64,000 nt of DNA, from positions 1 through 64,000 of the IMG/VR virus record IMGVR_UViG_3300025133_000060. One strand, 5' to 3'. The notes under the pieces were generated by a model. That model was given only the letters and a program-made list of their open reading frames with translations. It had not been told where the DNA came from and did not search any database. Source of the DNA: a virus. Position numbers and translations under genes: made by a program. Shown in pieces: positions 1 through 52,549 of the stretch (position 1 is its first letter; every line of letters begins with the position of its first letter).

Positions 1-522
1 TGCGCCGGTGGCTCCGGTGGCTCCATCCGTTCCATCTGTGCCATCGGCTCCATCTGCTCCCGCCGCACCAGTAGCCCCTGTTGCTCCCGTTGCTCCCGTT
101 GCTCCGGCTTCGCCTTGAATGCCTTGACTACCTGTCGCACCTGTCGCTCCATCTGCACCAGCCGAGCCGGTCGCACCAGTAGCACCTGTCGCTCCCGCAT
201 TCCCTCTTGGAATCGTGAACGACAAAGCGTTGTCCGATATTGACACACTCGCCGATGTTCCCGCCGCACCCGTTGTTGTTGTGCCGACAGACACAGAATT
301 GCTGGAACCTGTCGTTGTTGTTGTCGATGTTATCGAACCAAATATGCGCTCACTCTTGACATCGCTTGGGACTTCACCCAGAACAGAAGGCAACCCGCCA
401 GATAATTCTTGAACGATAGCGGCCAATTGTGGATAGGTCATACTTTGTCGAACTCGACTATTGTATTCATTCGGATAATTGGCCTTGAGCCACGCTCGGA
501 TTTGCACATCTCGGCTTGCCAT
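1..522 (-). CDS. Collagen-like virion protein, 3' end cut by window edge
   Basis: The reading frame starts with ATG at 522 and stays open to the left edge, so the C-terminus is missing. The first 60 residues form a globular start ([17 protein letters not shown]) followed by a Thr/Ser-rich linker. From about residue 105 the protein is a run of Gly-X-Y triplets such as GATGATGATG, with an interspersed [10 protein letters not shown] block, which is the collagen-like repeat seen in many phage tail fibres and tail tips. The DNA of this part is itself a degenerate 9-base repeat. Function as a trimeric fibre stalk is inferred from the repeat. It is the last visible gene of the leftward transcription order. 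Confidence 0.85.
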
Positions 523-2907: not shown

Positions 2908-3192
2908 TCATTCAATCCAAGCATCTGGCGTATCTCGAACTGGAATCTCTTCGACCCATGTGCGAGTCTTGACAACCACTTCTTCATACTCTTCGTGGCG
3001 AATCACATCATTCCAACCGACTCGGACCCACGACCCTTTGAAGAATCTGACCAATGGCACATCGCATGATATACAATAATGTTCATCAAGTCCTGTTGCT
3101 TTGTCGACTCGTGAGCCGATGTTGTTGAAAGTCTTGTAGTCCGAACACGATTCATTCCTGCAAGTCCAGCACACAGAACTCACTTCACTCAT
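2908..3192 (-). CDS. Zinc-ribbon protein, 94 aa
   Basis: ATG at 3192 overlaps the stop of the upstream gene by 8 bases (ATGAGTGA). Cysteine pairs 'CWTCRNESC' near residue 8 and 'HYCISCDVPL' near residue 40 form a probable zinc ribbon. The C-terminal half (FKGSWVRVGWNDVIRHEEYE) looks like a beta-rich domain with an acidic end. Last gene of the operon that begins with the CobT-like gene at 7346. Function unknown; nucleic-acid binding is possible. Confidence 0.7.
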   Translation of the reverse strand: MSEVSSVCWTCRNESCSDYKTFNNIGSRVDKATGLDEHYCISCDVPLVRFFKGSWVRVGWNDVIRHEEYEEVVVKTRTWVEEIPVRDTPDAWIE

Positions 3193-3670
3193 CCGTTGTT
3201 GGCAATCCATTGGCTTCGATGTCGGCACGAATCAATGATTCAACGGCTCGACCTGCGGCCACGCCTTTGGCTTTCCAAGCCTTGATGTAGTCAACACAAT
3301 CCTCTGGCAGATTGACGGTGATTTGTTTGAGATTCTTTTTGGGTTTGCTCACGACACCGGCGGCGGCTTCGGCTTCGGCCAATGTCATCTCGGTCGTGAA
3401 TCCAATTCGGAATCTGGCGTTGCCATGATGTGAAGTTCCATTCCTGCTCAAGACAACGGCATCGACACCATCAACCACTCTTGCCACTTGCTTCAAGACA
3501 AATGCCAATTGGCGTGGGGTCTTTCGATGATTCTCTGGGAGTGTTGGGTCGGCGTTGACTCGTTCGGCCAATTGTGCCGATGTCATCGGACCCATCGACT
3601 TTGTGTCAACAAGTGTGGTCAATATACTTCGCATCAAGGGTTTGGGGATTCTTTTAGTCATAGTGTTCAT
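3185..3670 (-). CDS. Putative DNA-binding protein, 161 aa
   Basis: ATG at 3670 directly follows the stop at 3672 of the larger gene. The first 75 residues look like a winged-helix domain ('SAQLAERVNADPTLPENHRK', 'RQLAFVLKQVARVVDGV'), with a basic wing. The last 50 residues ('KQITVNLPEDCVDYIKAWKA', 'AGRAVESLIRADIEANG') read like a ribbon-helix-helix segment. Two DNA-binding folds in one small protein suggest a transcription regulator. Assignment is by eye from the pattern of helices and charged residues, so it is tentative. Confidence 0.55.
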   Translation of the reverse strand: MNTMTKRIPKPLMRSILTTLVDTKSMGPMTSAQLAERVNADPTLPENHRKTPRQLAFVLKQVARVVDGVDAVVLSRNGTSHHGNARFRIGFTTEMTLAEAEAAAGVVSKPKKNLKQITVNLPEDCVDYIKAWKAKGVAAGRAVESLIRADIEANGLPTTDE

Positions 3671-3671
3671 C

Positions 3672-5063
3672 TCATTCGGGGTCTCCCACCCTCTTAACGG
3701 CTTCGGCTGGAGCCTGTATCAAGTGGTGGAATGTGATTGCTTTGGCGGCTTTACAATGAGGACAAGTAGCCTCTGATATTTTGTTATCGGCTTTCATTTT
3801 GATAAGAACTCGACCGTTGCACGAACGGCATCGAATCTCATCGTGATAGTGGGCTGGGAATGGTGAGGCTCGGTCAATCACCAACACCCCTCGCTTGTCT
3901 TTCCAAGCAGGGATGAACTGGTCGGCGGTTGATTCACTCACATCTCCGATTGCAGCGGCTTGAGTGTTGCTCATCATAATCGAGAGTGCGGTGTAGTGGT
4001 TCAACGCATCGGCTTTTGTTGGATGGATGAATGAACGAATTGAATTGACTTCATGGTGTCCATACATTCGCTCCACACATACAAAACCAACATCACCGAA
4101 TCTCCACACATCATCAGTTCGGATATTCCACAATTCACTATCAGCGGTGATGACCAGCGGTTCAATTGGGGAATGACTTGAGGTCATTACTGCATCCAAA
4201 ACGAAGCCAGAGCCATTCCATCGCTCGATAGGAACAACGAGAATATCACCCCGTTGACAACCGGCTACATTAGCATGGGTGTATGCGAGAAGAATGTTTG
4301 AACTCAACGCATCCATACAACGGTTCGGGTCAGTATCGCTCGCACCTGACGGTTGGAACAATCGACAATAGGCGGTCTGGTCGGGGAATGATGTCTCTTG
4401 GTGTGTGCCGATAACTTGGAGAACTGTGAATGGAACATTGTCAATTGAGTCCACTTCTTCGGCATCCTTGAGGTGATTATCCCACTCCACTCCAATGCGC
4501 TCCCAGATGAGTGGCATTGTGTTCTGGACTTGTAATGGAGAACCATTGGTGCCTGCTGTGCTCCCTTTGGGGAGTTCATGTGGAATCTGTCGCAAATCAT
4601 CTCGGTATTGGCCACGCCAGTTCCCCATCAATCCAAACAAATGGTCGTGGGGTTGACGGGCATCGGCGATTGGCTTTCGCACCATGTTCGACTTGAGTTC
4701 AACGACCGACTTGAATCCGGTGTTCAGATTGTCAATGGAGATGGCAGAAGCCCAATCGTTGGGCATGACTTCAAGCCAATAAGGACTGTCAATAACTGAT
4801 GTCATTGTATCTGGACAATGGATGCGAGCATCGGTGGTGCGAGGATTGTCGAAGGTTGTATATGGATAATCTATGCGCCGACTATCTCGCCAGTCTTTGG
4901 GTTGTCCACGAGGCATGATGCTTCGACCTGTGTGTTGAGTCAGCATATGTGGTTCCGCATCATCGAGTTCCCCCCACACAAGACCCAAGTTCAAGCCACT
5001 TGAACCCCATAGCGAATAACTCGCATTGGTGGAATCATAGGCATCATGGACTTTGACTTTCAT
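3672..5063 (-). CDS. Unknown 463-aa protein with C-terminal zinc ribbon
   Basis: ATG at 5063, nine bases after the CobT-like gene. I do not recognise the body of the protein, which is rich in Trp, His and Asp and contains several 'GDILVVPIERW'-type beta strands. Residues about 417-442 hold two Cys pairs, 'CRSCNGRVL' and 'CPHCKAAKA', a typical zinc ribbon. Position between the MoxR/CobT-like pair and a DNA-binding protein suggests that it belongs to that system. It is long for an unknown viral gene and worth structure prediction. Confidence 0.7.
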   Translation of the reverse strand: MKVKVHDAYDSTNASYSLWGSSGLNLGLVWGELDDAEPHMLTQHTGRSIMPRGQPKDWRDSRRIDYPYTTFDNPRTTDARIHCPDTMTSVIDSPYWLEVMPNDWASAISIDNLNTGFKSVVELKSNMVRKPIADARQPHDHLFGLMGNWRGQYRDDLRQIPHELPKGSTAGTNGSPLQVQNTMPLIWERIGVEWDNHLKDAEEVDSIDNVPFTVLQVIGTHQETSFPDQTAYCRLFQPSGASDTDPNRCMDALSSNILLAYTHANVAGCQRGDILVVPIERWNGSGFVLDAVMTSSHSPIEPLVITADSELWNIRTDDVWRFGDVGFVCVERMYGHHEVNSIRSFIHPTKADALNHYTALSIMMSNTQAAAIGDVSESTADQFIPAWKDKRGVLVIDRASPFPAHYHDEIRCRSCNGRVLIKMKADNKISEATCPHCKAAKAITFHHLIQAPAEAVKRVGDPE

Positions 5064-5072
5064 TGTAATCCC

Positions 5073-7346
5073 TCAATTGCTCTTGACGGTGCGAACCATC
5101 TTGCGGATGATTGGCATGGACTCACGAACCAAGTCGTTGGAGTCGTTGACACAAACGGCATTGTCATAGTATGTGCTGGTGTCCATTCCATCAATTCCAA
5201 CGGAGAACAATCCAATGTCTTTGTTGGCGTTTGCGACAACCGCACGAAGGTGTTGGTCGGTGTTCATCGTTGGTGGGCTTGGACCCGCTGGTTGGCCATC
5301 AGAGATGACGAATAGCATACGGTTGCCCTTCATTGGTTGAAGGCGGTGCAAGCACCACTCAACCGCATATCCATCGGCATTGTTGCCACCGGCGGTTGGA
5401 GTGCGGATAGCGGCTTTTGTGATTTGATTCAATGGTGCGGTCATTCCCTTGCGGATTCTCATGGCGGTTTTGTTGCCATGAGAAGCGAAGTCGACAATCT
5501 CGCAACCAAAGTTCAAGCGGTCGAATACTTCTGCAAAGACGCAAGCGGTTTGTGCCGCCTTCTCGCAACGAGTTCCGCCCATTGACCCAGATGAGTCGAT
5601 GAGGATGATGATGTTTGCTTCGGCCTTCTTTGGTTCGGTCTTTTTCATGAATAGTCTCTCGTTGGTTCTGTGGAAAGCCAAGCGGCGTGAGTCAAGCGCA
5701 CCACGCTTTAGTCCTCGCTCGTGCTTGCTATTGTCGCCCTTGAGAGTGCGCTTGAGTTCGTTGACCATTGTTATGATTTGCGCCTTGTTCTCGCCGACAA
5801 CATCGTTGTATGCTTCGGCGGTCGACTGAATATCGACAGCCCCTCTCTCAATGAATGAATCGGTTGTGTGGGAGATGATGCACTCGTGGCCACCATCATC
5901 GAACTGTGTTGGGAATACTTCATCGGGTGAATCCATTGGAGTCTTTGAGTCTTTGATGTCATTCTCAAAGTCGTGCTTGATGTCTCGTGCATCCTGTTCT
6001 TCGGCATCCATTACCGCTTGAACTTCAGCCCACATCTCATCAAAGTCGATGTCATTGGTTGCCATGCCTCTATCGCCACCTGCACCCATGTCATCGGATT
6101 CGCCTTCGTGGTTCTCATCCTCGCCATCGCCATCGTTGAACTCCCAGACGGTCTCGCCATCTGCGCCTTCACAGGAATCGCCATCGGAGTCGCCTTCGCC
6201 TTCTCCTTCGCCCATACCGGACTCATCGGAATCGGAATCGCCAGCACCAGATTCGCCACCGTCTTGGTCGCCATCCTCGCCTTCTCCATCGGACCCTTCG
6301 CCGTTGCCGGAGTCGCCTTCATCGGAATCATCCGATTCTTGGCCAGTTCCAGCCTCGTCAGAGCCATCGTTTGCTCCAGAGGATGAATCATCCCCCTCAT
6401 CACATTCTTCGCCGTCAGATGACTCCTTTTGCTCACGAACCTTCTTGGCCTTTTCAGCGAGTTCATCCAGTTTTTTCTTCAAGTCTTGGAATCTTTGGCG
6501 GTTGACTTCTTCGGGTTTTGCATCCTTCTCGGTTTGCTTCTGTGCCATCTTTTCAATCTCTTCTGGGCTCATGTCATCGGTCATTACACCTTCTGCATCA
6601 TCGCCTTGTGGCATACCGAATGTGTCGGAATCCTCGTTCGCATCCTCTGGAAAGTGAGTGCGGAATACTTTGAGCATTCTCTTTGCTTGCCTGATGACTG
6701 ACTTGGTGTTTGGTTGACCAATCGCAGTAGCGCAGATTGGGCGAACCTCATCCATGTAGTCGCATACTGCTGGAACATGGTTGAAGAAGTGAGGCTTTTG
6801 TGCAATTGCTTCGGTCATCATGGCAATCATAGCGGCTTGGCGAGGATTGACTTCATCGGCGGGTTTGCCGTTCCAGTTATCCTCATGACGCTTCATGAAA
6901 ATTGCTTGGGTTGCATCCAGTCTTTTACCCGACCCAGCGAAGTCCTGTGAGAGCAAGTGGTTGACTCTTGCATCCTCAAGAATGTTCACGAAGTCATGGA
7001 GTAGTCTATCCTCATGCCCTCTCTTGATTTCATCGCCAATAACTTTCCATGCTTTGAAATCGGTGTATCGGAGATGACCGGCGGCTTCGTGAGCGAGGAT
7101 TGCTTCTTGAGCGATGTGGTTCACCTTATCATCCTCGTGAACTCTCATTGGAATCCAGACGGTCTCTCCATCTGTGCAAGCACGACCCTGTGGGCAGATA
7201 ACGACTCGCTTGACGGGTGTTCCGACATTCTCAAGTTCACCAGATAAGACGGTGGCTATCTTGTTAAGTGTGCGATTGCGAGCCTGTGCGATATAACTTC
7301 GCTCGACTCGACTGACCTGTATTCCGGTGTTGGGGCTGTCTGCCAT
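5073..7346 (-). CDS. CobT-like protein: HExxH-type metal site plus vWA domain
   Basis: 757 residues. Residues 86-91 read HEAAGH, followed about 30 residues later by 'NILEDARV', the arrangement of zinc ligands found in CobT and related proteins. A highly acidic low-complexity linker (about 250-430, Asp/Glu/Ser/Gly) separates this from a C-terminal von Willebrand A domain with the metal-binding MIDAS motif DSSGSMGG near residue 583. CobT proteins work with a MoxR/CobS AAA+ partner, and such a partner is encoded just upstream at 8588-9763. The pair probably remodels a protein complex; cobalt insertion is unlikely to be the task in a virus. The start is supported by a TATA box 30 nt upstream. Confidence 0.85.
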   Translation of the reverse strand: MADSPNTGIQVSRVERSYIAQARNRTLNKIATVLSGELENVGTPVKRVVICPQGRACTDGETVWIPMRVHEDDKVNHIAQEAILAHEAAGHLRYTDFKAWKVIGDEIKRGHEDRLLHDFVNILEDARVNHLLSQDFAGSGKRLDATQAIFMKRHEDNWNGKPADEVNPRQAAMIAMMTEAIAQKPHFFNHVPAVCDYMDEVRPICATAIGQPNTKSVIRQAKRMLKVFRTHFPEDANEDSDTFGMPQGDDAEGVMTDDMSPEEIEKMAQKQTEKDAKPEEVNRQRFQDLKKKLDELAEKAKKVREQKESSDGEECDEGDDSSSGANDGSDEAGTGQESDDSDEGDSGNGEGSDGEGEDGDQDGGESGAGDSDSDESGMGEGEGEGDSDGDSCEGADGETVWEFNDGDGEDENHEGESDDMGAGGDRGMATNDIDFDEMWAEVQAVMDAEEQDARDIKHDFENDIKDSKTPMDSPDEVFPTQFDDGGHECIISHTTDSFIERGAVDIQSTAEAYNDVVGENKAQIITMVNELKRTLKGDNSKHERGLKRGALDSRRLAFHRTNERLFMKKTEPKKAEANIIILIDSSGSMGGTRCEKAAQTACVFAEVFDRLNFGCEIVDFASHGNKTAMRIRKGMTAPLNQITKAAIRTPTAGGNNADGYAVEWCLHRLQPMKGNRMLFVISDGQPAGPSPPTMNTDQHLRAVVANANKDIGLFSVGIDGMDTSTYYDNAVCVNDSNDLVRESMPIIRKMVRTVKSN

Positions 7347-7366
7347 GTCTTATCCCACACCAGCAT

Positions 7367-7377
7367 CACATATAAGC
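7367..7377 (-). promoter_or_regulatory. TATA box for the CobT-like operon
   Basis: Minus-strand GCTTATATGTG; TTATATG starts 30 nt before the ATG at 7346. No GGGTGGGG stretch follows, so this box differs from the replication class. Confidence 0.6.
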
Positions 7378-7419
7378 ACTTCGACTTATGGTGTTCAAGT
7401 AGTATGATTGTTGAACCAT

Positions 7420-8304
7420 TCATATTCGCCGAACTGACCCTCGAATATCACGCCTTCGGAATGGCGGCTTCAATTGCTCTGTGGCTCTAAGGGTCGTCAG
7501 ATAGGCCATAGACACCGTTGAGAGTCCTTCGACACCCCAAGCAAGGGAATGAAGCCTCATCGCTTCACAGACGCTCTCTGATGACGCACAGTTCCATTCT
7601 GCGGCTTGTATCACACTCAAGGGATGAGAGGACACCCCACACTCGTGAGGATGCTCACCACGAAGGATGGTGGCTATCTCGTGAAATCCCGTTCGGGTGC
7701 GATGGGTTGCTTCGACTTCGTTGTCGACCCAATCGGTCGGAGTGGTCTTGAGCAGGAACATCGCACTTCTCCACGATGATGAGTTTTCAGCAATCCATCG
7801 AATCCGAACTGGGTCGACATCTGGACTTATCGAACTCAATAATGCCACCAAGTCATTTGAACTTGGTTGTGGAATCTCGTGAGTCAATCCAGATTTGCGA
7901 TACGCCCAACCGACTTCGGATTCAGATTGAGCGATGATGATAAGTGGGAATGCTTTGGACTTGATGGCGGAATCGAATGCTCGCCATGCTGACTTGGAGA
8001 TTGCACCAGCATCCTCGACAATGAGGCATCTCGGTTCACCAAAGAATGTCGGCATCCGAGCCTCGCTGAACACTCGATTGAAATGCTTGACATCTCGGTC
8101 GGCATCTGCATGACTCTCGATGATGTCGAATCCAGCCTCGTGAGCATACGCTCTGGCGACTGTTGACTTGCCAACACCGGAATCACCCACTATCACCAAA
8201 GGATAGACTGACGGTGTTCCATAGCCCCAAGAATCAAGCCATGACTTGATGGGTGCGAAGTTCCTGCGGGGTCCAAATAGTTCTGCGGGAGTTAAATCAT
8301 CCAT
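7420..8304 (-). CDS. RFC large-subunit-like clamp loader ATPase
   Basis: 294 residues from ATG 8304, which overlaps the stop of the upstream coiled-coil gene; a longer frame to 8424 would lie inside that gene. Walker A is GDSGVGKS (40-47) and the Walker B-like motif is 'CLIVEDAG'. The segment 'DPVRIRWIAENSSSWRSAMF' matches the end of the AAA+ lid in RFC large subunits, where unloaded clamp loaders read GDLR-A. The order of motifs fits RFC-L better than a MoxR protein, although the protein is shorter than cellular RFC-L (about 480) and lacks its C-terminal collar. It would work with RFC-S (13284-14306) to load the clamp. Confidence 0.6.
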   Translation of the reverse strand: MDDLTPAELFGPRRNFAPIKSWLDSWGYGTPSVYPLVIVGDSGVGKSTVARAYAHEAGFDIIESHADADRDVKHFNRVFSEARMPTFFGEPRCLIVEDAGAISKSAWRAFDSAIKSKAFPLIIIAQSESEVGWAYRKSGLTHEIPQPSSNDLVALLSSISPDVDPVRIRWIAENSSSWRSAMFLLKTTPTDWVDNEVEATHRTRTGFHEIATILRGEHPHECGVSSHPLSVIQAAEWNCASSESVCEAMRLHSLAWGVEGLSTVSMAYLTTLRATEQLKPPFRRRDIRGSVRRI

Positions 8305-8476
8305 GTCGCTCGCCCTTGAAATTATCCAATCGGACTTGGGCTGGGTCGAATGAACGAGGTCGGATTGTATCTGCGAAGTTATCCAGTAATCGGCGCAACC
8401 GAACGACTTCGGTTTCAAGGTCATTCACTCGCTTCTCAAGCGCATCTGTGCGTTGGGTATTCTGGTCTGTGGTCAT
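8297..8476 (-). CDS. Small coiled-coil protein, 59 aa
   Basis: Start ATG 8476 sits about 31 nt from a TATA box and the stop overlaps the RFC-L-like start (ATGGATGA), so it is the first gene of a two-gene unit. Residues 11-32 form a clear heptad pattern (DALEKRVNDLETEVVRLRRL) ending in LLDNF. The tail is basic. It may be an oligomerisation partner for the AAA+ protein encoded directly after it. No homologue recognised. Confidence 0.75.
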   Translation of the reverse strand: MTTDQNTQRTDALEKRVNDLETEVVRLRRLLDNFADTIRPRSFDPAQVRLDNFKGERHG

Positions 8477-8492
8477 AGATGTTGGTGGTGAA

Positions 8493-8507
8493 CCCCACCA
8501 TTATGAA
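8493..8507 (-). promoter_or_regulatory. TATA box, plain class, for the coiled-coil/RFC-L unit
   Basis: Minus-strand TTCATAATGGTGGGG, one base different from the PCNA box, about 31 nt before the ATG at 8476. Confidence 0.7.
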
Positions 8508-8543
8508 GTGCAAGGTGGGATGGGGAGTGAGATATGGGAGATA

Positions 8544-8577
8544 CCTCGTGCATACTCCCCACCCCGTTTGCACGAGG
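8544..8577 (-). terminator. Perfect 9-bp inverted repeat after the MoxR-like gene
   Basis: CCTCGTGCA (8544-8552) pairs with TGCACGAGG (8569-8577) across a 16-nt loop, 10 bases past the stop of the MoxR-like gene. A second overlapping pair, GGGGAGT (8522-8528) and ACTCCCC (8554-8560), could form instead. No T-run follows, so a terminator or RNA-processing role is only a guess; an operator is also possible. Confidence 0.45.
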
Positions 8578-8587
8578 CTTGTGAGTT

Positions 8588-9763
8588 TCAGTAGTCGCTC
8601 AAGCGAGCCCTTGCGGCGGTCTTGATGACATCGACTTCATGGGGTTGGTATCGACCAATCATCACATACTCGACAATCTCGGTCATATTCAAATCCTCTG
8701 ATGCTGACATCATATCCACAAGCATTCTTGTTGATGTGTCGGACTCAAGGTCGTGAGCATTCTTCAAGCGGCGAAGGTCGTTGGCTAATTGCACGAACTG
8801 GCGAGAGAGGGATGGGTTTTGCACACCGCTCTGTTCTTGAATAACTCTCATCTCCGAACCTTCGGGCAAGTAGCCACATTCAAGTGCCATACCGAATCTG
8901 TCGAGGGTTGCTTGGTTGAGGTCTTGGCCACCGGAGTAGCCTTCGATTGGGTTCATGGTTGCGAATGTTCTGAAATCCTCATGAGCGACAATGACTTCAT
9001 TGTTGTTCTGTGGAATCATCAAGCGACCGGAGTCGCCAACGGCGTTCCATGCGGTCATAATCTCTGGGCGAGCATGGCGGAACTCATCGAAGATGAGGAT
9101 GCAACCTTCACGCATAGCGGTTGGGAGGACACCATCAATCCAAACGATTTTACCGTCAACGAGTGTGTTGTAGCCAATGAATGACTCTTCGGTGAATCCT
9201 TCTGAACAGTTAATGCGAATGACTGGAATACCGACTTCTGATGCCCATGCAAGGACTCCCATTGTTTTACCGCATCCTTTGGGTCCGTTCAAGGACACAT
9301 TGAAATTGCGCTTGAATGCGATGGATAGTAATCGCATCTCGTTCTTTTCGCTCTCAACATAGCCAAGTGTTCCGGCTTTGTGAATGTAGGCTTGAGCCGC
9401 ATCGGTGTATTCATCGGATTGTCGGCGGCGGATTCCGTAATAGAATCCATCATCGGTTGTCTGTGGTGTAGTGGTGTTCGGCGACACATTGGTTGTGGCA
9501 TTCATTCCACCAACGGCGTTTCCAGCAAGAAGTGATTCGACCAGAACCTTAGTCCATACATATTTGTCTTTACCAATCGTCATGCGAGTGATTCCCGCTG
9601 ATTCCATTCTTGCGGAATTGAACGCATTGGACTTTAGTGAAGTGATAGATGTTGAACCACCCTCACTCTCAATCAGTTCCAATACTGCGTTCAGATACGC
9701 ATCTTCTGTCATTTGTCCACCGTTGAGTTCAACGGCATCTCTCATATTCTCTATTAGTCCCAT
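8588..9763 (-). CDS. MoxR/CobS-like AAA+ ATPase
   Basis: 391 residues. Walker A GPKGCGKT near residue 160, Walker B 'CILIFDEFRHA' near 224, then 'TFATMNPIEGYSGGQDLNQA' with the MoxR-type sensor Asn, and 'LDRFGM' holding the arginine finger. The N-terminal 100 residues look like a small winged-helix-type domain with a Thr/Asn-rich linker. MoxR/CobS ATPases act with a vWA/CobT partner, present at 5073-7346. The start at 9763 is preceded by a strong Shine-Dalgarno AAAGGAGATATG, unusual here, and the TATA box lies about 75 nt upstream, so this mRNA has a leader. Confidence 0.85.
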   Translation of the reverse strand: MGLIENMRDAVELNGGQMTEDAYLNAVLELIESEGGSTSITSLKSNAFNSARMESAGITRMTIGKDKYVWTKVLVESLLAGNAVGGMNATTNVSPNTTTPQTTDDGFYYGIRRRQSDEYTDAAQAYIHKAGTLGYVESEKNEMRLLSIAFKRNFNVSLNGPKGCGKTMGVLAWASEVGIPVIRINCSEGFTEESFIGYNTLVDGKIVWIDGVLPTAMREGCILIFDEFRHARPEIMTAWNAVGDSGRLMIPQNNNEVIVAHEDFRTFATMNPIEGYSGGQDLNQATLDRFGMALECGYLPEGSEMRVIQEQSGVQNPSLSRQFVQLANDLRRLKNAHDLESDTSTRMLVDMMSASEDLNMTEIVEYVMIGRYQPHEVDVIKTAARARLSDY

Positions 9764-9869: not shown

Positions 9870-10382
9870 TCATACTTCTAAGGGTATGTTATTGATTCGC
9901 AAATAAGTCAACAAGTGTCGGTCAGTCCATGCTTTGAGGCCTGACGATTGTTCTCGTTTGAGAACTTTTTGTGTGGTCTCGTGGATGAGAAGTCGCTCAT
10001 CCTCTCCCCAATCATTCCAGTCTCGAACTAATTCGCATATCTCACGCACGAGTGTATAACAAAGGGGGTCATCATCCTCTCCCCAGATTGCCTTCTCCAG
10101 ATTGCTGATGAACTGGCTCACCTTGTCCGAACGAATCATTAAGGCATATCCTTCGGCCACCTTTGACCATTCGGCTTTGTCTCGCTTCAATTCACTATAC
10201 AACAGGTTGCGATGATACGAGAGGCCACCGAGATGCGTTCCGAATATCGCACGAGCCTCGTGGTGGGTGAGGCCACATGAATCTCGGAGAAGGCGGTATG
10301 CCTTGCGCCAATCACTTAACTGGGTCAAACAAACCAATCTCCCATTGTTGACTGACTCATTCCGGCTCTCGCTTGTTCCCAC
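9870..10382 (-). CDS. Hypothetical alpha-helical protein, up to 170 aa
   Basis: The frame opens with GTG at 10382 inside the polymerase gene. A TTG near 10337 would reduce the overlap and is equally possible, so the first 15 residues are uncertain. The product is helical with a segment 'HHEARAIFGTHLGGLSYHRN' and many Trp and acidic residues near the C-terminus. It follows PolB in the same operon. I recognise no family; a replication accessory role is inferred only from position. Confidence 0.6.
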   Translation of the reverse strand: MGTSESRNESVNNGRLVCLTQLSDWRKAYRLLRDSCGLTHHEARAIFGTHLGGLSYHRNLLYSELKRDKAEWSKVAEGYALMIRSDKVSQFISNLEKAIWGEDDDPLCYTLVREICELVRDWNDWGEDERLLIHETTQKVLKREQSSGLKAWTDRHLLTYLRINNIPLEV

Positions 10383-13021
10383 GATGTTCCGAGCGCACCA
10401 AGAATCTGTTTGAAAGAATTGGAATTGACGAAGAACTTCTCAATCGCTCCCACCCTATCGACCACGATACCATACTCGGCTGGGTCATCTCCCCACTCAA
10501 TTGCCACGAGTCGGTTCGGTGGGATTCCATTCTTGGTCGCAGAGGCCATGAATATCACCGGCTTATCACCGAGCGTGAATGATGTGTTCAGATGTTTGTT
10601 TGACCACATCGCCGACCGATGCGCTTGAGTTCCAGATGTTTTCACTCCCATCGGTTGGCCGTAATCTCCATCGGTTGTCAAGGTTGGGTCGAGCATATCG
10701 GATTCGATAGAGCGAATCAACAGATTGATGTCAGTTCGGGAATCGCCATCCAGTATAGATTTGAACAATCGCTCTTGAGCCGACTTGACAACCTGCGGCG
10801 AACTCGACCGGCGCATCTCCACACCTCTGAATCCATGATGTCCATCAAAGTCAACATAGGCATATCGCTTCTTGACTCCCCATTGAAAGTAGCGAGCATA
10901 GAAGGCATCGGGTTTGACTCTAAAGAACTCATTCTTGGGAACCCCAAGAGTAGTCTGCACGAACTCATCAAATGATGCGTTGAGAATCTCGGTCAAAATG
11001 TTCGCACAGGAATAGATGTCTGATGGTGTGAATGGTCGCACTTTGGATTCGGCTTCATCGTGGTTCTCAATTATCGTCTTGCACGAATCTGTGTCTTGAT
11101 AGAGAGTCTTGAATCGGAGTCGCACCGCATCCGCATCACCTTCGACATGAGATGGGAGTCTATCAATGTTTTGGTCTATCAATGGTTGTGGGTCGGGATA
11201 GACACCATCCTGTGTGAAAATTAGTGTGGCTCGATTGATGATTGATTTATTCCAATCGTTGTGGCGGCGAGCGATGTCGGTTATATCGGAGCCAATCTCA
11301 CCATCGACCAGTCGGAATGGTCGGCCAGATGTTTTGTCGGTTTGACCAGAACCAAGAACTCCATACCACGAGTTCATGTTCTCCTTCATCACCCGTTGGC
11401 GTTGGTTGAGTCGATTGCCAAGTTCGTCATTCCCAGATTTGTATGCTTCGGCCATATCGCCCCTCACTCGCTCTCGCTCGGTTGCGAGCCCACGAAGGAT
11501 GCTTGGCATCAATCCCTCGATGTCTTGGCGATAGATGCGACCCAATGGAGTCCGAGCGACAGGGAATGGGAATCCGTCAGGATAATCCTCTTCACGCACC
11601 TTCGTGCTTGGGTCGGCATTACAAGTGATGATGACCGATGGATATTCCATCGAGTTATCCAGTTCAAACGCATTCTGCCATAGACCTGACGGTGCATCCA
11701 TCACATACCCACCGGATTCAATTCCGCCGGTCGCCAATCTGGAGCGAACTGTATCGAGCGATGGCATCACGGCATCCCTGTCTTGGAGCAAATGACCCAT
11801 CATATCCTCAATGAGCATCATGTTCGAGTGCGCCGAATGGAGTGTGGAATTGTGGAATCCGACTTTCATCTGATAGAATGAGAGCAGGTCGAGTTTATCC
11901 ATGCACCGATGAGCCACGACATTATCCCAGATATTGTAAATCACCAACATCATCGGGTCGTTCGCCATCATCTGCTTGATTGATGTGCGAGGAACTTTGC
12001 CATAGCCGAGTGTTGATTGACCCATCCATGCGAGCGATGCGGCTCCTGTTGTTGCGGCGGCTCCCTGAACCTGCTCGGCATAGACTCGCTTTGTATCGAA
12101 TGACGGCATGAGTCCTTTGTGTCGGGTGAATAATTTTGGATAGGTCGCCCATACTGGAACATTCCCTCGATGTTCTCGCTCCATCGCTCGGCGTTGATTG
12201 ACGCATCGGTTCTTCACATACGGGTTGTCATAGTTCAGAATGTTCTGACCAGCGATAACATCGGGGTCATACTTCTTGATGACTCTCTCGAACCACCAAA
12301 GCAATCCAGCCTCACGCTCGATGTCATCCTCGCCTTCGATGTTGTGAACATGGATGCGCTCGGCCACGAGTGGTGGGATTGGGTTATCATGCTCAACAAC
12401 GGACTCCAGAGCGACCTGTGAGGCCATGAATCGTCTGACTTGTCTTTCACTTGTGTGGCGGATTGTTGCACACTCATGGGTGTCTGTGCGTTCATCATAG
12501 ATGGCTATCGACACAATCGGTTCGGGTGTTCCATTCATGTCGAGGGAGTCGGCGGTCTCTATGTCATAATAGAGAGCATTCAATTTGAAATCTGAAATGT
12601 CGTGATTGGATTTGTGGATTTCAATCGGTCGCAGAACTGTCGACTTCGTGAGAAGTTCAGTATCGACTTCGATAACCGCACCCCAGCCTGCAATCCAGCG
12701 CACCAGATTCGGCCAAGACACATCAGCACAATAATGAGGAAAAAAGAACTCACGGATTTCACGAATGTGGGATGGCTTATCCACTCGGATTTCAAAAAGT
12801 AAATCTCCTTCGACCGATGTGAACTTGGATGGTTTAATGCTCTTGACTTGCTTCGGGAGAATCATTCCCTTCGGATTCTTTTCAGTCCAGAAGCGTGGTT
12901 GAATGTTGCGAACCAACAGGTTGTGGGATTGCCCATCGAGTGCCTTGCATCGAATCTCGGTGAGCAGTTCGGGGTTCTCGTGATAGTCGAGAGCGATAAT
13001 CAAAAGAGGTTCTTTAGCCAT
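10325..13021 (-). CDS. polB: Family B DNA polymerase with PIP box
   Basis: 898 residues with a full set of motifs. Exonuclease: ExoI 'YYDIETADS' near 150, ExoII 'AGQNILNYDNPYVKNR', ExoIII 'YNIWDNVV'. Polymerase: motif A 'DNSMEYPSVI' near 453, motif B 'KENMNSWYG' near 547, motif C 'YQDTDS' near 640. It should therefore replicate the viral genome with proofreading. The very end, QSTMGDWFV, matches the PCNA-interacting consensus QxxhxxWF, linking it to the clamp encoded at 18425. The start ATG 13021 has a Shine-Dalgarno AAGGAG and overlaps the upstream gene. Confidence 0.97.
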   Translation of the reverse strand: MAKEPLLIIALDYHENPELLTEIRCKALDGQSHNLLVRNIQPRFWTEKNPKGMILPKQVKSIKPSKFTSVEGDLLFEIRVDKPSHIREIREFFFPHYCADVSWPNLVRWIAGWGAVIEVDTELLTKSTVLRPIEIHKSNHDISDFKLNALYYDIETADSLDMNGTPEPIVSIAIYDERTDTHECATIRHTSERQVRRFMASQVALESVVEHDNPIPPLVAERIHVHNIEGEDDIEREAGLLWWFERVIKKYDPDVIAGQNILNYDNPYVKNRCVNQRRAMEREHRGNVPVWATYPKLFTRHKGLMPSFDTKRVYAEQVQGAAATTGAASLAWMGQSTLGYGKVPRTSIKQMMANDPMMLVIYNIWDNVVAHRCMDKLDLLSFYQMKVGFHNSTLHSAHSNMMLIEDMMGHLLQDRDAVMPSLDTVRSRLATGGIESGGYVMDAPSGLWQNAFELDNSMEYPSVIITCNADPSTKVREEDYPDGFPFPVARTPLGRIYRQDIEGLMPSILRGLATERERVRGDMAEAYKSGNDELGNRLNQRQRVMKENMNSWYGVLGSGQTDKTSGRPFRLVDGEIGSDITDIARRHNDWNKSIINRATLIFTQDGVYPDPQPLIDQNIDRLPSHVEGDADAVRLRFKTLYQDTDSCKTIIENHDEAESKVRPFTPSDIYSCANILTEILNASFDEFVQTTLGVPKNEFFRVKPDAFYARYFQWGVKKRYAYVDFDGHHGFRGVEMRRSSSPQVVKSAQERLFKSILDGDSRTDINLLIRSIESDMLDPTLTTDGDYGQPMGVKTSGTQAHRSAMWSNKHLNTSFTLGDKPVIFMASATKNGIPPNRLVAIEWGDDPAEYGIVVDRVGAIEKFFVNSNSFKQILGALGTSWEQARAGMSQSTMGDWFV

Positions 13022-13287
13022 GCCAACAATCTCCTTATGACCCCCACCTTTTTGATTGGGTTGCAGGTATGAACAACCGCATCAACGGCTCTAAGACGAA
13101 CCAATGCGGCGGTGAGATAGATGGCTAAGTCGAGAACCTCTTCAAGCCCCATCTCCGCCCATGAATCAGCGGGAGTTCCCCACGACCGAGTATCATCCAT
13201 CACTCGGATTCCATGTCCATATCGGTCTCGGCCAATATCCAATCGAGCCTGAATCAATTCGAGAATCTCGTCATTGTCATCCATCAT
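13000..13287 (-). CDS. Small helical protein, MazG-like, 95 aa
   Basis: ATGATG at 13287 overlaps the RFC-S stop. The pattern 'RYGHGIRV', 'WAEMGLEEVLDLAIYLTAAL' resembles phage proteins of the all-alpha NTP pyrophosphohydrolase (MazG-like) group, in which the EE-LD helix binds metal. One of the expected metal-binding helices is hard to see in so short a protein, so catalytic function is uncertain. It sits between clamp loader and polymerase, where a dNTP-pool enzyme would make sense. Confidence 0.6.
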   Translation of the reverse strand: MMDDNDEILELIQARLDIGRDRYGHGIRVMDDTRSWGTPADSWAEMGLEEVLDLAIYLTAALVRLRAVDAVVHTCNPIKKVGVIRRLLAWLKNLF

Positions 13288-14306
13288 GTTTTCAATCTCC
13301 TTAACCAAGCCTTGACGGTGAGAATGTCATCCTGTGAGATTGACGCATGATGAAGTGCATCACCAATCGAACTGAAAATTGAACGCTGAATTGACACCGG
13401 CATCGACCTATCTTCTGCTGTCGCTCTGAATATCGAATCCAATATGTCGCTGCCAGAGAATCCCTGTTCTGCCAGATTCTCGATTTGCTTATCCATCCGT
13501 CTGGCCAATTGTCGATATTGCTCTGGGTCGGATTCTTGAGAACACTTGAATGCGGTTTGTAGCAATCGGACTCTCGCCTTCGGGCTCAATTCTGCAACGA
13601 CATCATCGACATCATCAATCGTGGCGGTTGTTGGAACTCTCGTGGTGGCGAATAGAATGTTGAGTGCTTTACGCATGGAGCCACGAGCGACAAGGCCGAT
13701 TCTCTCGATAGCCTGTGGTTCAATATCCAGATTCTCCTTCTCGGCCACATTGGTCAAAGCAAATGTGATGTCGACCTTTGGGATTGGTCGGAATCGAGTA
13801 TCGGAGAACGCACATCTATCCTTTACTGGGTCAATCAATTTGTGAGGATAATTGCACGACAGAATGAACCGAGTCGTTTTGGAATGAATCTCCATGATTC
13901 GGCGGAGAGCAGATTGAGCATCGGGTGTCAGGTTGTCGCATTCGTCAAGGAACACCACATTGAATGGTATCGCACGAGTCTCCCCATTGACCAGATATGA
14001 ACCGATAACACCACGCCGAGCAAAGTCCTTGACCTTCGTGCGGATGATATTGATTGACCGTTCATCGGATGCGTTCAATTCAACAAAGTTTGCATCCCAA
14101 TCATCTCCGAACATCGAACGCATCAATGCCATCGCCGCCGATGTCTTGCCGACTCCAGCGGGTCCGGCAAACATCAGATGAGGGAATCCGGCATCCGCAC
14201 CAGATTGGTGCAAATCCTTGACCATGAACTTCAAGCGGTCGATGATGTGGTCTTGGCCAATAACATCATCAAGAACGAGTGGCCTATACGATTCCGCCCA
14301 TAGCAT
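13284..14306 (-). CDS. Replication factor C small subunit (clamp loader)
   Basis: 340 residues from ATG 14306, chosen because it is 31 nt from the TATA box; a frame to 14327 would enter the promoter. It starts MLWAESYRPLVLDDVIGQD, the RFC signature. Walker A GPAGVGKT (48-55), Walker B 'VVFLDECDN', sensor 1 'FILSCNYPHKLI'. The arginine-finger SRC motif of RFC-S reads DRC here (PVKDRCAF). It would form the AAA+ pentamer that loads the PCNA-like clamp, with the RFC-L-like protein at 7420. First gene of the operon RFC-S, MazG-like, PolB, unknown. Confidence 0.95.
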   Translation of the reverse strand: MLWAESYRPLVLDDVIGQDHIIDRLKFMVKDLHQSGADAGFPHLMFAGPAGVGKTSAAMALMRSMFGDDWDANFVELNASDERSINIIRTKVKDFARRGVIGSYLVNGETRAIPFNVVFLDECDNLTPDAQSALRRIMEIHSKTTRFILSCNYPHKLIDPVKDRCAFSDTRFRPIPKVDITFALTNVAEKENLDIEPQAIERIGLVARGSMRKALNILFATTRVPTTATIDDVDDVVAELSPKARVRLLQTAFKCSQESDPEQYRQLARRMDKQIENLAEQGFSGSDILDSIFRATAEDRSMPVSIQRSIFSSIGDALHHASISQDDILTVKAWLRRLKT

Positions 14307-14320
14307 GATTGAAGGGTGAA

Positions 14321-14336
14321 CCCCCACCCTTATGAA
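14321..14336 (-). promoter_or_regulatory. TATA box of the RFC-S/PolB operon
   Basis: Minus-strand TTCATAAGGGTGGGG, 31 nt before ATG 14306, identical to the PCNA box. Confidence 0.75.
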
Positions 14337-32489: not shown

Positions 32490-35400
32490 TCAACCTTCAG
32501 GATAACCGGCCAAACCTTCGCCGCCACCATCAATCGAAGTTCCGAGTTCCATTTGGATTCCGCCAGCAGATGGATAGAATACTTCTGCGCCTTTGGTGTT
32601 GGTTCGATACCACGCCAGTTCGTTGGTGAACCATCTCAAGTCAATCTCGGATGCGTCATATCCCCAGAACCGTTGGAATCTCAATTGTGGGCTGTGATGT
32701 GGAAAGTCCTCTTCACCGGCCATCGTTTGAGCCGAACCGACTGGACTCCAAGTATTGTTGACTTCATCCCATCGAAGAGAAGGAACAGATAACCATCGAA
32801 TGTTCACCGACCTAAGAGTGTTGGCGGTAGTATCGAACTCGATTGATGGAACCCAACAATGCACGAGATGTTGATGTTCACTCCCGACCGAAGAGTCCAT
32901 GTATGGAGTAATTGGCGGAGTGATACTTTTTGTCCAGTTCGGGGATTCGGCGGGTTTGATGAACCCACCAATGTATGGAACTTCGGATGCAGCGGTTTCA
33001 TCCCCTGTTGGTGTTGCCGCCCAAATGAGTGGGGATAGTGCGGATTGGCGAGCCTTCGGAACTGTCGCATCTCGATAGACTTCTCCGAATCTCCCATCAT
33101 CCGAGCCAATCATCGTGAATGACATGACAATGTGGATATTCCCTTTGCCGTCAGTAGTGAGCGAGATGTCTCGATAATTGGGATTGGTTTTGCGGAGTTC
33201 TGACACTCCATCATACACAGGACCCCGCCATAGTGTGATGTGCGCTCCAAGACCATCTGTGCTGGTGTATTGTTCCGCAAGGGTCTTGCGAGTATCAAAC
33301 ACCGAGATGAGCGTCTGGCGTGGCGCATAGGCAACGGGAGAGGACTCCCTATCGTCTTTGATGGACAACACAATTGCCCTATCCCTTTCATCAATGATGG
33401 CATCATAATAGACCACATCTTTCGTCTCCATTGGATTCTTTGAATCTGGTGGGAGTCCGACCACATGAAAGCACTTGGTTGTATCAAATGCGAATCGACC
33501 AGATGGGTCGCTGATTCGATTTGGTGATTGGCCGATGTTGCAGTATATTGCATCATAGTTTCGACTGGCATCGGCGAACGATTGAATTGGCAATCCACGA
33601 TAGAACACCACAGGAATGTTGTCGCCTCTCAACACAACCTTCGGACAATCATTGTATGTTGTATAATGTGGACCCGATGCAGGTTGATTGAGGTCGGTCT
33701 CTGCCGCATCCACAATGAGACCATTCACCACTTGATACCGATTATCGTCAGGTCGCCCCTGCAATTCTGCGTTGTCGATAGGAGTGAATGTTGGGAATGA
33801 ATCTTCGCCAGCGAGTTTTGATGTGTAGTATATTCGATTGTTCTGTGGCAATCCCGTTGAACCAACATGAGACATTGGTTGAACGAACGACAAATGAAGT
33901 CGGTCATTCCCATCTATCACAAGTGATGGGTGTCGCATATCCCACATTGTTCCACCAGCCTCAAGTCCGGTGTATGTCGCCCCGCCTTGAAGCAACACAG
34001 GTGTGTGGATTGACCAGTCCCAATCATAAATGGGGTCGGGGTTTTGAGAGGGTGATGTGCGAACCGCTTTGTGATAATAGAATCTGTGCGCTCGATGGTT
34101 TGCCGTATCGTCTGGATTCGCATGATATTCGAGAATTGCATGAATCGTTCCCGCCGAATCCGATGCAAATGCCGCACCCATCACTCGGCCTTTGTGATAT
34201 TCTGCTGGGGTCGTGAGACCTGCTCCTATCGAGTTCAATAAGGGGCCGACTTCATCCAATCCTCCGAACACAGCGGATTCATTTTGTGGTTTCATCGCCT
34301 TCTTATTCCAAAACAAATCTCCGTGAAGTGGCTTCTTGATGTGAGTCCATTGTGGCAAATTGTCTGAACCTGATTGGCAAGAACGGCGGATGAAGAATTG
34401 ATGGAGTGTGCCGTCTGGTGTTCGCAATTGTCGTTGACCCATTCCGAGATTCTGTGGGCCTGACCCACCGGCCATTACTGCTGGGCCTGACATATCGTTG
34501 CCATCCATATTCGATTGCCGTTGAATCATATACACCCCCTTCGGGTCTTGGAATCCCATCCCGACCGCCGAAGCGATTGAACCAGAATCCCACATCGGCT
34601 TCGCCGTCTGCGACACATGAACATCAACACTCGATTGTAATTGCTCGGACAAAGCCAACACATCGAGTTCATGAATCTCGTTGACTCTCGCCAACATCAA
34701 TGGTGAATATCGACTGGATTCAATCATCGCCAAGTCATAATCGGAATTGGGGAGAATCGGCATGGCCGAAGCGTGAAAGTGGTCAGTCGGATGGTCAGAC
34801 CAAAACGCCTCAAGACCGAATGAGCCACTCACGATGGGTCCGTGAACTCTTGTTCCAATGGTGTCCATTGGTGCAATTTGCGCCCCTGACACACCACCCG
34901 AACCCCAAGTGGGCTTATCCCATAGGTTCGTTCTCAAGAAGTATTGACCGGCCACAGGTCGAGCCGCATCCGGTGGCGATTCTCCACCGAGTTCAAATCC
35001 TGTGTTGAATTGTGATGCTCCCAGCAGATGAATGTTGTCGGTTCGGTGGAATGGAGTCTCCATCTCAAGTTCAATGGCGTTCTTTCCACCGGCTCTCGCT
35101 CGAACACTCACGGCTGGTGGAATTAACAAATGAATTGGAATGTTGTAGCCGACTCCACCGTGAACTTGTTTGAATACTCGGTCGACTCGATATGGGTGCA
35201 TTTTGGTTGAGATTCCATAATGCAGGGGTCCGTGATGCGACCAACCACCAACCCGACCACGCATCAACCGATGACCTTGAACCTCCGCACTCCCCCAAGA
35301 GAACACCCGACCACCGACAGTCAATGATGTCCATTCCATCGCCCCTATTGCTTCGAGTGGCGGTGGGAGATTTGGGTCCCAAGTCCGAACCAGATAGTTT

Positions 35401-38400
35401 GTTGGTTCTTCTCGCAAAGCCCTGCCATCAGATGCTTGATATTGGCTTTCATAGATGGTTGACCAATCGCTCAATAATGGGTCGAGAATCGCCGCCACAA
35501 TGTCGGCCACGCTCGACACACTCACAGGTGCGAAGATGCGTTCGTGGGGTCCAGTTCCCAATTTATACACTATCATCGAATCAAGCGTGGTTGGGAATGA
35601 TACTCCACGCAAGTCGACAAAGCGACCCACATTTGGAGCCCAGAGATTTGCGCCAGCACTATCCGAATCATCTGCGACATCTCCGAATCCTTTGAAAATT
35701 GCTTGCTCGGTAGGAGTAATGACTCCACCAACGAGTGGACTTGCATCAAGTGATTCTGGTGCATCGGAGAAGAATGTTTGGTTATCTCCATAGGATATTG
35801 GGTCGAATAAGCCTCGTGGGAATGACCAGCCTGACCAGCCGAGTTCTTGGAATGGATTCGCACCAGAACCAAAGTCAGCAAATCCAATTGTGGTTGGAAC
35901 GAACCGAGTCAATTTCACATGAGAATTGCGAATCCCCACCCACGCATCCGTGATTCTGGTGTCGTTGTCAACGAGGTCGGGGGTTGCTTTTGACATTGAC
36001 TTGGCTGTGATTATCGGTTGGATGGTTGGGAATCCAGACGAGATGCGAGCCGAGTCGCTTAGAGCAGGTGTTCCATATTCATTGATTAAGAACGGGAGAG
36101 AGCGAGGGAGATTTGCATATGACATTCGACAATCTGGGTATGAACCATAGGTGATTGGGATTGCTCTTTGACCAGACTCTTGATACCAATATGAGATTCG
36201 TGCGCCACTCCACCAAGTATCGCCGTCAGTCCATGTTTGTCGAGCGATATTTTCAATTGTTCCACCAGTTCCGATTGACACCTTCTCCCATGTGATGTCG
36301 AATAATGCTCGACCACGCTTGGCGAACCCCGTATCGGGGTCGGCTTTCGCATCGGAGAACATGAGGATGAGAGAACGGGCTTGAGTATTCGCCATCAATT
36401 TTGACCAAGTGGGATATGCCGAGAAGTTATCGCTCTTGGGTGTTGAGCCGCCAGAGCCATTGACCGGAGTGGGAACAGAACTCGATGGTTTAGCATCTCC
36501 AGATTGTGGGTCGGGTCCGAAGCCAGCCGGATAATCTGCCGACTCACCACCGATGGGAATGCACTTGCCGCCCGATTGATAATATCCGGCAGGACAACCG
36601 CCGGTGTCGAGGTCAGGATTCAAAGGATATTTGATGTCAACCGCCGGATAATCGTTCTCGGTTTTGATGTAGTCGACATGAACCGCCGCCATAACGAAGC
36701 GACCATCATCCATCGCTCTTAGACTGGAACAATGAAGCGTTGGGTGATAGATGGGCGCACTACCACCACTCGCCTTTGGATGCTTCACAGCGTTCTTCTC
36801 TTCACGACCGAGATAACGCATCATCTCAATTTGAGGCATGACCCAATCATGTATCGACCACACCGCACCATATCCCAGCGGAGTATTTGTGAGTTCACCA
36901 ATTTGAGTTCGAGTGATTGAATCACAAGTCGCCGCCGAATATGGAATCGACACACCAGAACTTGGAAACCCAGAGAGTATCGGGTTCGATAAGTATGTGC
37001 TGGAACGAGTATAGAGTGGGTCGAGAGTCGGAGAATATCGCCAAACCAACAATTCACAACCTTGCGGAATTGTAGGTGTGCCGACTCCATCTGGCCAAAC
37101 CTGACCATTCCCCCATATCCCGTAGTGAGGTTGCCCATCAACGGTTGTCGATGTTTGGCACAATTGCGTTGGGTCTATGACATCTGCACCGATGAATATC
37201 TCGCCTTTGTATTCACAAGCATCCCACACATGAGAGATGCCACCCCGCTGGAATGAACCACCGCCTTCAACCGCCGCACATAGGTCGGGGATTTTGGTGT
37301 TGGTATCAGCCAAAGCAAGTGGTCGGAATGGTGTTGCTTGGTGCAATCCCCACCCCATGTGAGCCTCACCCTCTTCAATATCAGCCCATGTGTGGCGAGG
37401 CATCACAGACATCGGGCATTCATTCTCTAATGGGTCAATTCCAAGTGCGGCTCCAGCCGTTGCATCAATGAATATCTGTTCAAGAGATGTTGGGTCGATT
37501 CGGAATATGCCGTGATAGATGGTGCATGGAATATCAGAGAAGTCGCAGTTCACAGATAGGCGAGTGCCATCGGGGTTATTCCGTTGAGTCGGTGTTCCGG
37601 TTGGTGTATTCCCCACGCTTGTGTCTGCTGTTCCATCTGGCACATGAGATTCTCGCACCACCGAGACAATGACATGATAGTCAACAAGAGGCTTGCGGAA
37701 TGTTTGACTCGCCGCCGATGGATGGTTGGCCAATTTTGCGGCTCCTGCCGACACTTCAATGTCAGTATAGCCGGTGATGACGGGAACAATCTGAACTTTG
37801 GTTGGAACTCCATCTGCAATCCATCGACCTGTCGAATATGTGGAGTCGATGAGTTCTGGTGAGTCATCGCCCTTTGTATTGGAGCCGATAATTTTGCCTG
37901 TTGTTCCTGCTCCGCCCTGCTTAATCTGGTTTGAGTTCACCAATTGATGTGGAACTCGACCCAACGGACCCACCATAGTCGGCTGGTCGGGTATGGCCGA
38001 AGTGTGCAAATCTCCAGACGAGAAGTTCCTAAACCAAGTGGCGTTGGCATTGACATCAACACCGAGAGGATGAGTAGCGGCTCGACCTGCGTGGGTTGAG
38101 AGCGCATCGAACATTGGGTCAATTCGCCCCCCATCTGACCCATACAAATATGCTGGTTGTGTTGGTGTTCCTGTTGTATAGCCGTTGCGCCTGACAGGTG
38201 TGCCGGAATTGACTTGAATGTTCAACCCCGCATATCCCTTGCTCGCATCGGCGATAGACACAGGACCCAACACTCCACCAGTATCAGTCGCTTTGGTCGG
38301 TGCGAAGAATGCGGTGGCCGTGATGACTCCTTCATATCCAATTAACCCAACCGAGTCTGCGACAACACTCGCACCCAAGTCGGCTCGACCCAGATTGGTT

Positions 38401-50630: not shown

Positions 50631-51020
50631 TTATTCTTCTTCGGTGTTGCCAACCCTGAATCCACCCATATCTAAGCGCATTCTCTCGACTTGAAGTTTA
50701 TCCAATCCTTCGACTGGTATTTGCTGGTGTGGGCTATGCTCAAATCGTTCGACCATACACTTCTTGCACCGATGTTCGCTATCTTTGCCATGTGAAGGTG
50801 CGCCCATTTTCAAAAGTTCCTTCTTGAATCGGTGTCGCTCATCCTTAACTGGCCAATCGACTTCGATTGCACATGGATTCCCATGCTTCTCACATCGAGT
50901 GTGAAAACGATGCCCACACTTGATTGGCTTCTTGAGTGGTCGAGGCTTCTTTGCCTTCGATGCCTTCGATGCCTTCTTCGGTCGAGGGATTCGTTTGCGT
51001 TGGGGATGCCGCTTGCTCAT
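50631..51020 (-). CDS. Basic zinc-binding protein, 129 aa
   Basis: ATG 51020 overlaps the glycosyltransferase stop (ATGA). The first 35 residues are Lys/Arg/Pro-rich (KRHPQRKRIPRPKKASKASK) and repeat AS-KA units. Then 'CGHRFHTRCEKHGNPC' and 'HRCKKCMVERFEH' provide a Cys/His set for one or two zinc ions. The tail is acidic. Function unknown; it sits in the tail module but its sequence suggests nucleic-acid binding. Confidence 0.7.
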   Translation of the reverse strand: MSKRHPQRKRIPRPKKASKASKAKKPRPLKKPIKCGHRFHTRCEKHGNPCAIEVDWPVKDERHRFKKELLKMGAPSHGKDSEHRCKKCMVERFEHSPHQQIPVEGLDKLQVERMRLDMGGFRVGNTEEE

Positions 51021-52351: not shown

Positions 52352-52549
52352 GAGGATGCGAACCTTTTGCCCTGCTTCAAGGCTTCGGTGAAAACAAAGT
52401 GTCAACGACCAAAGAGCGAACATTGGCCGATGACGATTTGTCGACCACGACCCCACCTATTTGAATACCCCGAATCACAATATGGTGGGGGTTTGTATGT
52501 TTTCAATCGCAATTATTCCATTCGATAACTGTCATATCGAGGAAAATAA

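Follow-up and report, generated by a model that had tools for sequence, protein, structure and literature searches.

We analyzed a 64,000-nt stretch of viral DNA (hereafter, the window; GC content 49.5%) that is part of the 81,530-base virus record IMGVR_UViG_3300025133_000060 and carries, on its minus strand, a gene pair encoding a MoxR-family AAA+ ATPase and a CobT-like protein with a vWA domain. In the order of transcription, the genes of this region encode an RFC-small-like clamp loader (RFC-S), a family-B DNA polymerase (PolB), a protein of 170 amino acids (aa), the MoxR protein, an RFC-L-like protein, the CobT-like protein, and two further proteins of 463 aa and 161 aa (Table 1). The open reading frames (ORFs) of the pair are complete, as described in an initial annotation made from the nucleotide sequence, and so is the RFC-L-like ORF between them. 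The motifs HEAAGH, NILEDAR, and DSSGS of the CobT-like protein are present as stated there. Zinc and DNA-binding features had also been proposed for the two proteins encoded after cobT. For the 463-aa protein, a zinc ribbon was found, at the C-terminus only, whereas a DNA-binding fold of the 161-aa protein is possible but not established. The latter protein is present in nearly all relatives in which the available sequence reaches far enough.

Table 1. Genes and protein motifs of the conserved block, with positions in the window
Feature	Position	Strand	Evidence or remarks
RFC-small-like clamp loader, first gene of the syntenic block	13284..14327	-	Pfam AAA 4e-13 and clamp-loader lid models
Family-B DNA polymerase (PolB), upstream neighbor	10325..13021	-	Pfam DNA_pol_B 4e-14
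170-aa protein between polB and moxR	9870..10382	-	kept across the clade
MoxR-family AAA+ ATPase (CbbQ/NorQ/CobS/Midasin-like), 391 aa	8588..9763	-	Pfam AAA_5 2e-21, CbbQ_C 5e-7
MoxR Walker A motif GPKGCGKT	9263..9286	-	residues 160-167
RFC-L-like AAA+ protein, 334 aa, between the pair	7420..8424	-	NCBIfam RFC-L 2e-15; PHROG clamp loader 1e-9
CobT-like protein, 757 aa: metallopeptidase-like domain (N-terminal), acidic linker, vWA domain (C-terminal)	5073..7346	-	Pfam CobT_C 3e-17, VWA 3e-6; PHROG_1576 1e-40
HEAAGH (residues 86-91), HExxGH-type zinc motif, predicted helix 73-94	7074..7091	-	
NILEDAR (residues 121-127), predicted helix 115-135; Glu124 candidate third ligand	6966..6986	-	
Acidic Gly/Ser-rich linker, residues 310-430, 40% D+E	6057..6419	-	
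vWA MIDAS motif DSSGS (residues 584-588)	5583..5597	-	DxSxS in 37/37 sequences covering the site
Zinc-ribbon protein, 463 aa, directly after cobT	3672..5063	-	counterpart in 34/34 readable loci
Zinc ribbon CRSCNGRV...CPHC (residues 412-437)	3753..3830	-	among 15 homologues, C412, C415, and C434 are invariant and C437 is almost invariant
161-aa protein closing the conserved block	3185..3670	-	weak Pfam match only, E 0.03

Conservation of the gene order and of the metal site

A first set of 39 relative loci was retrieved with a CobT profile, and the gene order was kept wherever the contig was long enough. Because these loci had been found through cobT and were partly selected on the motif, a second set was retrieved through PolB, which yielded 31 loci with enough downstream sequence (another six end too soon). 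In all 31, moxR, the RFC-L-like gene, and cobT were found together and in unchanged order. Thus, the separation of the pair that the initial annotation had considered was not observed in this clade, in which a single gene lies between the two. These counts refer to loci, some of which share contigs across the searches; their independence is best gauged by the 25 CobT sequences with less than 90% identity.

His86, Glu87, His91, Asn121, Glu124, Asp125, and Arg127 are invariant in all 40 aligned CobT-like proteins (25 at <90% identity), a set that was partly selected on the patterns LAHE and EDARVN. In the PolB-selected set, the putative ligands His86, His91, and Glu124 are present in 31 of the 31 proteins and Glu87 in 30, and the conservation of these residues spans relatives down to 34% identity. 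At the level of sequence, the metal-site motifs are not due to chance. The proposed metal ligands therefore stood up in homologues found independently of cobT, with one exception at the catalytic glutamate. The conserved site resembles the metalloprotease type that had been suggested, but it is not the canonical HExxH: HEAAGH is an HExxGH hexapeptide with histidines at positions i and i+5. In four CobT loci (L069, L072, L076, and L077) the glycine is missing, and the motif reads HENAH or HESAH with the ligands kept.

An AlphaFold model of residues 1-251, computed with 13 sequences, had a mean pLDDT of 82 and consists of two strands followed by the helix with HEAAGH and, later, the helix with NILEDAR (Table 1). 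The predicted arrangement corresponds to the gluzincin layout, with two histidines and the catalytic glutamate on one helix and a glutamate ligand on a later helix, albeit with the i, i+5 instead of the i, i+4 spacing. In the viral structure library BFVD, the best matches of the model (E ≤ 0.001) were CobT-like phage proteins, among them those of HCTV-2, HHTV-2 (gene 2), and Cantare; HVTV-1 followed at E 0.0013. From motif and model, we infer a gluzincin-like metallopeptidase in the N-terminal domain, which would bind zinc and cleave peptides.

The neighboring proteins

In a phmmer search against the PDB, the MoxR protein matched Midasin (1e-55), CbbQ (3e-25), NorQ (5e-24), and CobS (2e-18). 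Besides the Walker A motif, it contains a Walker B motif FDEF (residues 225-228) and a TMN motif (residues 269-271), and a scan of 67 related MoxR ORFs showed a Walker A-type motif in every one. The RFC-L-like protein matches the NCBIfam RFC-L model over residues 47-215 only, with 56 bits versus a cut-off of 442. Its Walker A motif is kept, while the acidic pair of Walker B varies (ED, DD, EG, or EA) and the catalytic glutamate is not conserved; therefore, the protein may bind ATP more than hydrolyze it. In HVTV-1, an annotated RFC-L gene lies downstream of polB without the MoxR/CobT-like pair around it, which suggests an older replication operon that either gained or lost the pair.

In the window (3672-5063) and in the loci L042-L078, the ORF that immediately follows cobT encodes a zinc-ribbon protein wherever it is readable (34 of 34 loci), with a four-base overlap between its start and the stop of cobT in 14 of these. 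The proteins range from 298 to 648 aa, with a highly variable N-terminus and the ribbon at the C-terminus. An alignment of 15 homologues of the 463-aa protein has just eight invariant columns, and ribbon cysteines account for three of them. Modeling of this protein with AlphaFold, which the initial annotation had recommended, was informative for the ribbon alone (mean pLDDT 42, confident only at about residues 385-450). The variable N-terminus, the fixed ribbon, and the tight coupling to cobT suggest that the zinc-ribbon protein could be an adaptor or a substrate.

Distant relatives and their genomic context

Profile comparison with hhalign aligned the N-terminal domain with proteins of DLP6 (probability 94%) and P-SSM2 (68%). 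The motifs pair with a one-residue gap, HEAAGH with HEIGH/HEVGH and NILEDAR with NVIEDAR/NVCEDVR. The HE pair is kept in P-SSM2, DLP6, Mosig, CRP-810, Neoevie, ICP2, GMA6, Cantare, Mae-Yong, RHph_X66, HHTV-2, and HVTV-1. HHTV-2 encodes the metallopeptidase-like domain in an ORF of its own, still with HEVQH and LED.

The gene pair lies near clamp and clamp-loader genes in P-SSM2 and Mosig, near DnaE, ligase, or primase genes in Nican01, ANB28, RHph_X66, pAYP-A2, and Cantare, and near polymerase, UvsX, and primase-helicase genes in DLP6. In ICP2, a polymerase gene is about 4 kb from the pair. No virion-structure (head or tail) genes adjoin the pair in the annotated loci that were examined.

A proposed remodeling machine in viral genome replication

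Residue conservation points to a zinc peptidase, and the place of the genes in the operon indicates a link with genome replication. It appears moderately probable that the pair forms an ATP-driven remodeling machine with a metallopeptidase-competent cofactor that acts during viral genome replication. The MoxR protein would form an ATP-driven ring, with the CobT-like protein as its cofactor. Carried by a long acidic linker, the vWA/MIDAS domain at the C-terminus would dock the target or the ring; the N-terminal domain (ligands His86, His91, and Glu124, base Glu87) would cut or clasp the protein under remodeling. The target may be a protein of the replication complex or a protein bound to the viral DNA, and the best candidate for an adaptor or substrate would be the zinc-ribbon protein that is made right after CobT.

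Several lines of evidence argue for this mechanism. The ligands and Glu87 are conserved, and the natural switching between HExxGH and HExxH keeps the ligands, as in active DPP III. The predicted active-site helix is followed by the Glu124 helix in a fold that is common to vWA proteins of haloviruses and phages. The motifs pair with those of phage proteins, and HHTV-2 retains them in a separate ORF. The coupling of MoxR and vWA proteins has been demonstrated for p618 and p892 of ATV. Finally, the pair occupies a constant position next to the PolB and clamp-loader genes, with similar locations near replication genes in P-SSM2, Mosig, Nican01, ANB28, RHph_X66, pAYP-A2, Cantare, and DLP6. A remodeling or proteolytic role, as proposed in the initial annotation, thus fits better than cobalamin synthesis, whereas the host or virion complex named there as the target is not supported by the context, a replication operon.

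Other observations weigh against the proposed mechanism. Searched against the PDB, the model of the N-terminal domain gave no match at E ≤ 0.001, that is, no solved zincin fold, so that the zincin assignment rests on the motif and the helix layout. The motif is lost in Nican01, ANB28, and pAYP-A2, although the pair is retained. In one relative of the clade (L112, 14899-17073), the motif reads LAHANAHH, with Glu87 replaced by alanine; compared with L069, this is a single-base difference (GAG to GCG) in a 24-base stretch that is otherwise identical to the LAHENAHH stretch, and it reflects either an error of sequencing or a naturally occurring inactive variant. Judged by sequence, the catalytic site is usual, not universal, among the distant relatives, and the E87A replacement together with the motif loss suggests that catalysis is not essential everywhere. 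As to the context, the pair does not adjoin the polymerase gene in HHTV-2 and HVTV-1, and nearness to replication genes would be expected to have a sizeable base rate, early genes being a large share of such genomes.

The same losses, with the pair still in place, would be expected if the N-terminal domain were a pseudo-peptidase that binds metal or peptide without cutting and serves for remodeling only, for example, to load or unload the clamp loader or the polymerase, and MoxR-vWA systems do mostly act as chaperones (PMC7159879). Nevertheless, the retention of Glu87 in 30 of 31 relatives, and of HE in most of the distant relatives examined, makes a non-cutting domain rather improbable. Similarly unlikely, in our view, is a function in virion assembly or maturation, with the pair as a chaperone-protease for head or tail proteins. 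Virion assembly has been proposed for the same architecture in jumbo phages (PMC7824862) and inferred for ATV, whose p618 is a virion component that binds the vWA protein p892. In the clade of the window, however, the pair is firmly embedded in the replication operon, and head or tail genes adjoin it in none of the annotated phage loci that were examined. An extension of the remodeling machine, which we consider still more doubtful, is a replisome-coupled AAA+ metalloprotease, in which the hypervariable zinc-ribbon protein would join the metallopeptidase-vWA protein, the clamp-loader-like ATPase, and the MoxR ring in a single complex. This complex would remove or cleave proteins on the viral DNA during its replication, and the zinc-ribbon protein would be its targeting subunit, which evolves fast.

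The cobalamin reading

Genes with the labels cobS and cobT occur commonly among tailed viruses and are read as auxiliary genes of vitamin B12 synthesis. Liu et al. (2021; PMC8651126) described a viral cobST cluster, proposed that it hijacks the CobN of the host, and called the peptidase annotation that cyanophage cobT usually receives a mistake; a similar reading was published for magroviruses (PMC10160649). Consistent with such a mosaic cobaltochelatase of viral CobS and CobT with host CobN, the C-terminal vWA domain of the CobT-like protein matches CobT_C. However, the full-length protein scored 39.6 bits against the CobT model TIGR01651 (cut-off 759; Sinorhizobium control 1166.6), and the MoxR protein scored 61.8 bits against the CobS model TIGR01650 (cut-off 558.55; Sinorhizobium control 650.8) and resembles GvpN, CbbQ, and NorQ more closely than CobS. 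With scores so far under the curated NCBIfam cut-offs, membership of the pair in the cobaltochelatases was rejected, and with it the label. In addition, CobN was not found in a search of nine viral records, namely, that of the window and those of eight relatives; hhalign detected no homology between the N-terminal domain and genuine CobT; and genuine CobT lacks the HE pair, the segment that compares best reading HDARVH or HNPRIH. A MAFFT alignment had placed HDARVH/EQARVE of genuine CobT over HEAAGH/NILEDAR, as if genuine CobT contained an inactivated peptidase; this idea was dropped, as hhalign lent it no support. Taken together, a role of the pair in cobalamin synthesis is very improbable. 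If the zinc peptidase and its link with replication are confirmed, the published cobalamin claims for such viruses would need revision.

Genome setting and probable host

Several relatives are located on contigs of 78 to 83 kb. The nearest proteins to the PolB of the window are those of haloarchaeal tailed viruses, with about 23% identity, and a halovirus PolB was matched at 96% coverage. The RFC-like and primase-like genes of the window are of the archaeal type. The window virus is probably a tailed virus that infects archaea. A profile search of genome contigs for the host, with the CobT or the PolB profile, found no relative, within the limits that peptide patterns set for both searches. 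A collagen-like Gly-X-Y repeat DNA is common to both ends of the record (window 1-200 and the end of L004), and because of this shared stretch, the genome may be circularly permuted; alternatively, the assembly may have been broken at the repeat.

Outside of the block, the remainder of the record encodes a small protein with HHELLH that resembles SprT-type metallopeptidases (L004 6519-7100; G000:C1 70519-71100); a gene annotated as SprT-like is also present in HVTV-1. The same part contains two probable DNA methyltransferases, one of the cytosine-C5 type and one of the amino type (L004 13053-15290 and 15510-16403), and a putative protein resembling the PAPS-reductase family (L004 2116-2994). 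The window itself encodes a GT4-type glycosyltransferase (51017-52456; Pfam 1e-14) and two giant proteins, one of 2318 aa without any Pfam match (32490-39446) and one of 1742 aa with PKD domains (42107-47335).

Comparison with known systems

The core idea of a MoxR protein paired with a vWA-metallopeptidase has already been published for jumbo phages, for which virion assembly was proposed (Iyer et al., 2021; PMC7824862). As in the window, a MoxR AAA+ protein is linked there to a vWA cofactor whose N-terminal domain is of the metallopeptidase type, the genes being adjacent in jumbo phages. The window differs by the HExxGH motif, the RFC-L-like gene between the pair, the zinc-ribbon gene after it, and the position in a replicase operon, a comparison in which the jumbo-phage proteins ASV44729/ASV44728 were considered by description only. 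The viral cobST genes (HHTV-2, HVTV-1, and the cyanophage peptidase/cobS) form the same two-gene set, and the fold of the N-terminal domain matches HCTV-2, HHTV-2, and HVTV-1; the members examined have HExxH (HEVQH, HECGH, or HEVGH), and the CobN-hijack function is disfavored for the pair of the window. Bacterial CobS/CobT (PDB 9uka, TIGR01650, TIGR01651) likewise combine a MoxR-type AAA+ protein with a vWA protein that has an acidic linker, but the pair of the window is far under the cut-offs, its N-terminal domain is not demonstrably homologous, and genuine CobT is without the HE pair.

Two further systems are comparable in part. In ATV, the MoxR protein p618 and the vWA protein p892 interact (PMC4124505), which provides a viral precedent for a MoxR ATPase with a vWA partner; in contrast to the window, no peptidase domain was reported, and the process concerned is extracellular tail development. 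DPP III (family M49) has HExxGH as well as natural HExxH variants, both of which bind zinc alike, and its third ligand lies in an E-E-C-R/K motif (PMC5805324). This is an analogy of the motif only, not homology, as no sequence or fold match of DPP III to the window protein was found. The natural switch between HExxGH and HExxH in the relatives of the window would offer a clean mutational handle if the peptidase is confirmed. Compared with the known systems, the new features are the motif variant HExxGH, the universal zinc-ribbon neighbor with its variable N-terminus, and the fixed position in the replicase operon, and this combination of an odd zinc motif, a constant neighbor, and a place at the side of the polymerase gene makes the pair a useful test case.

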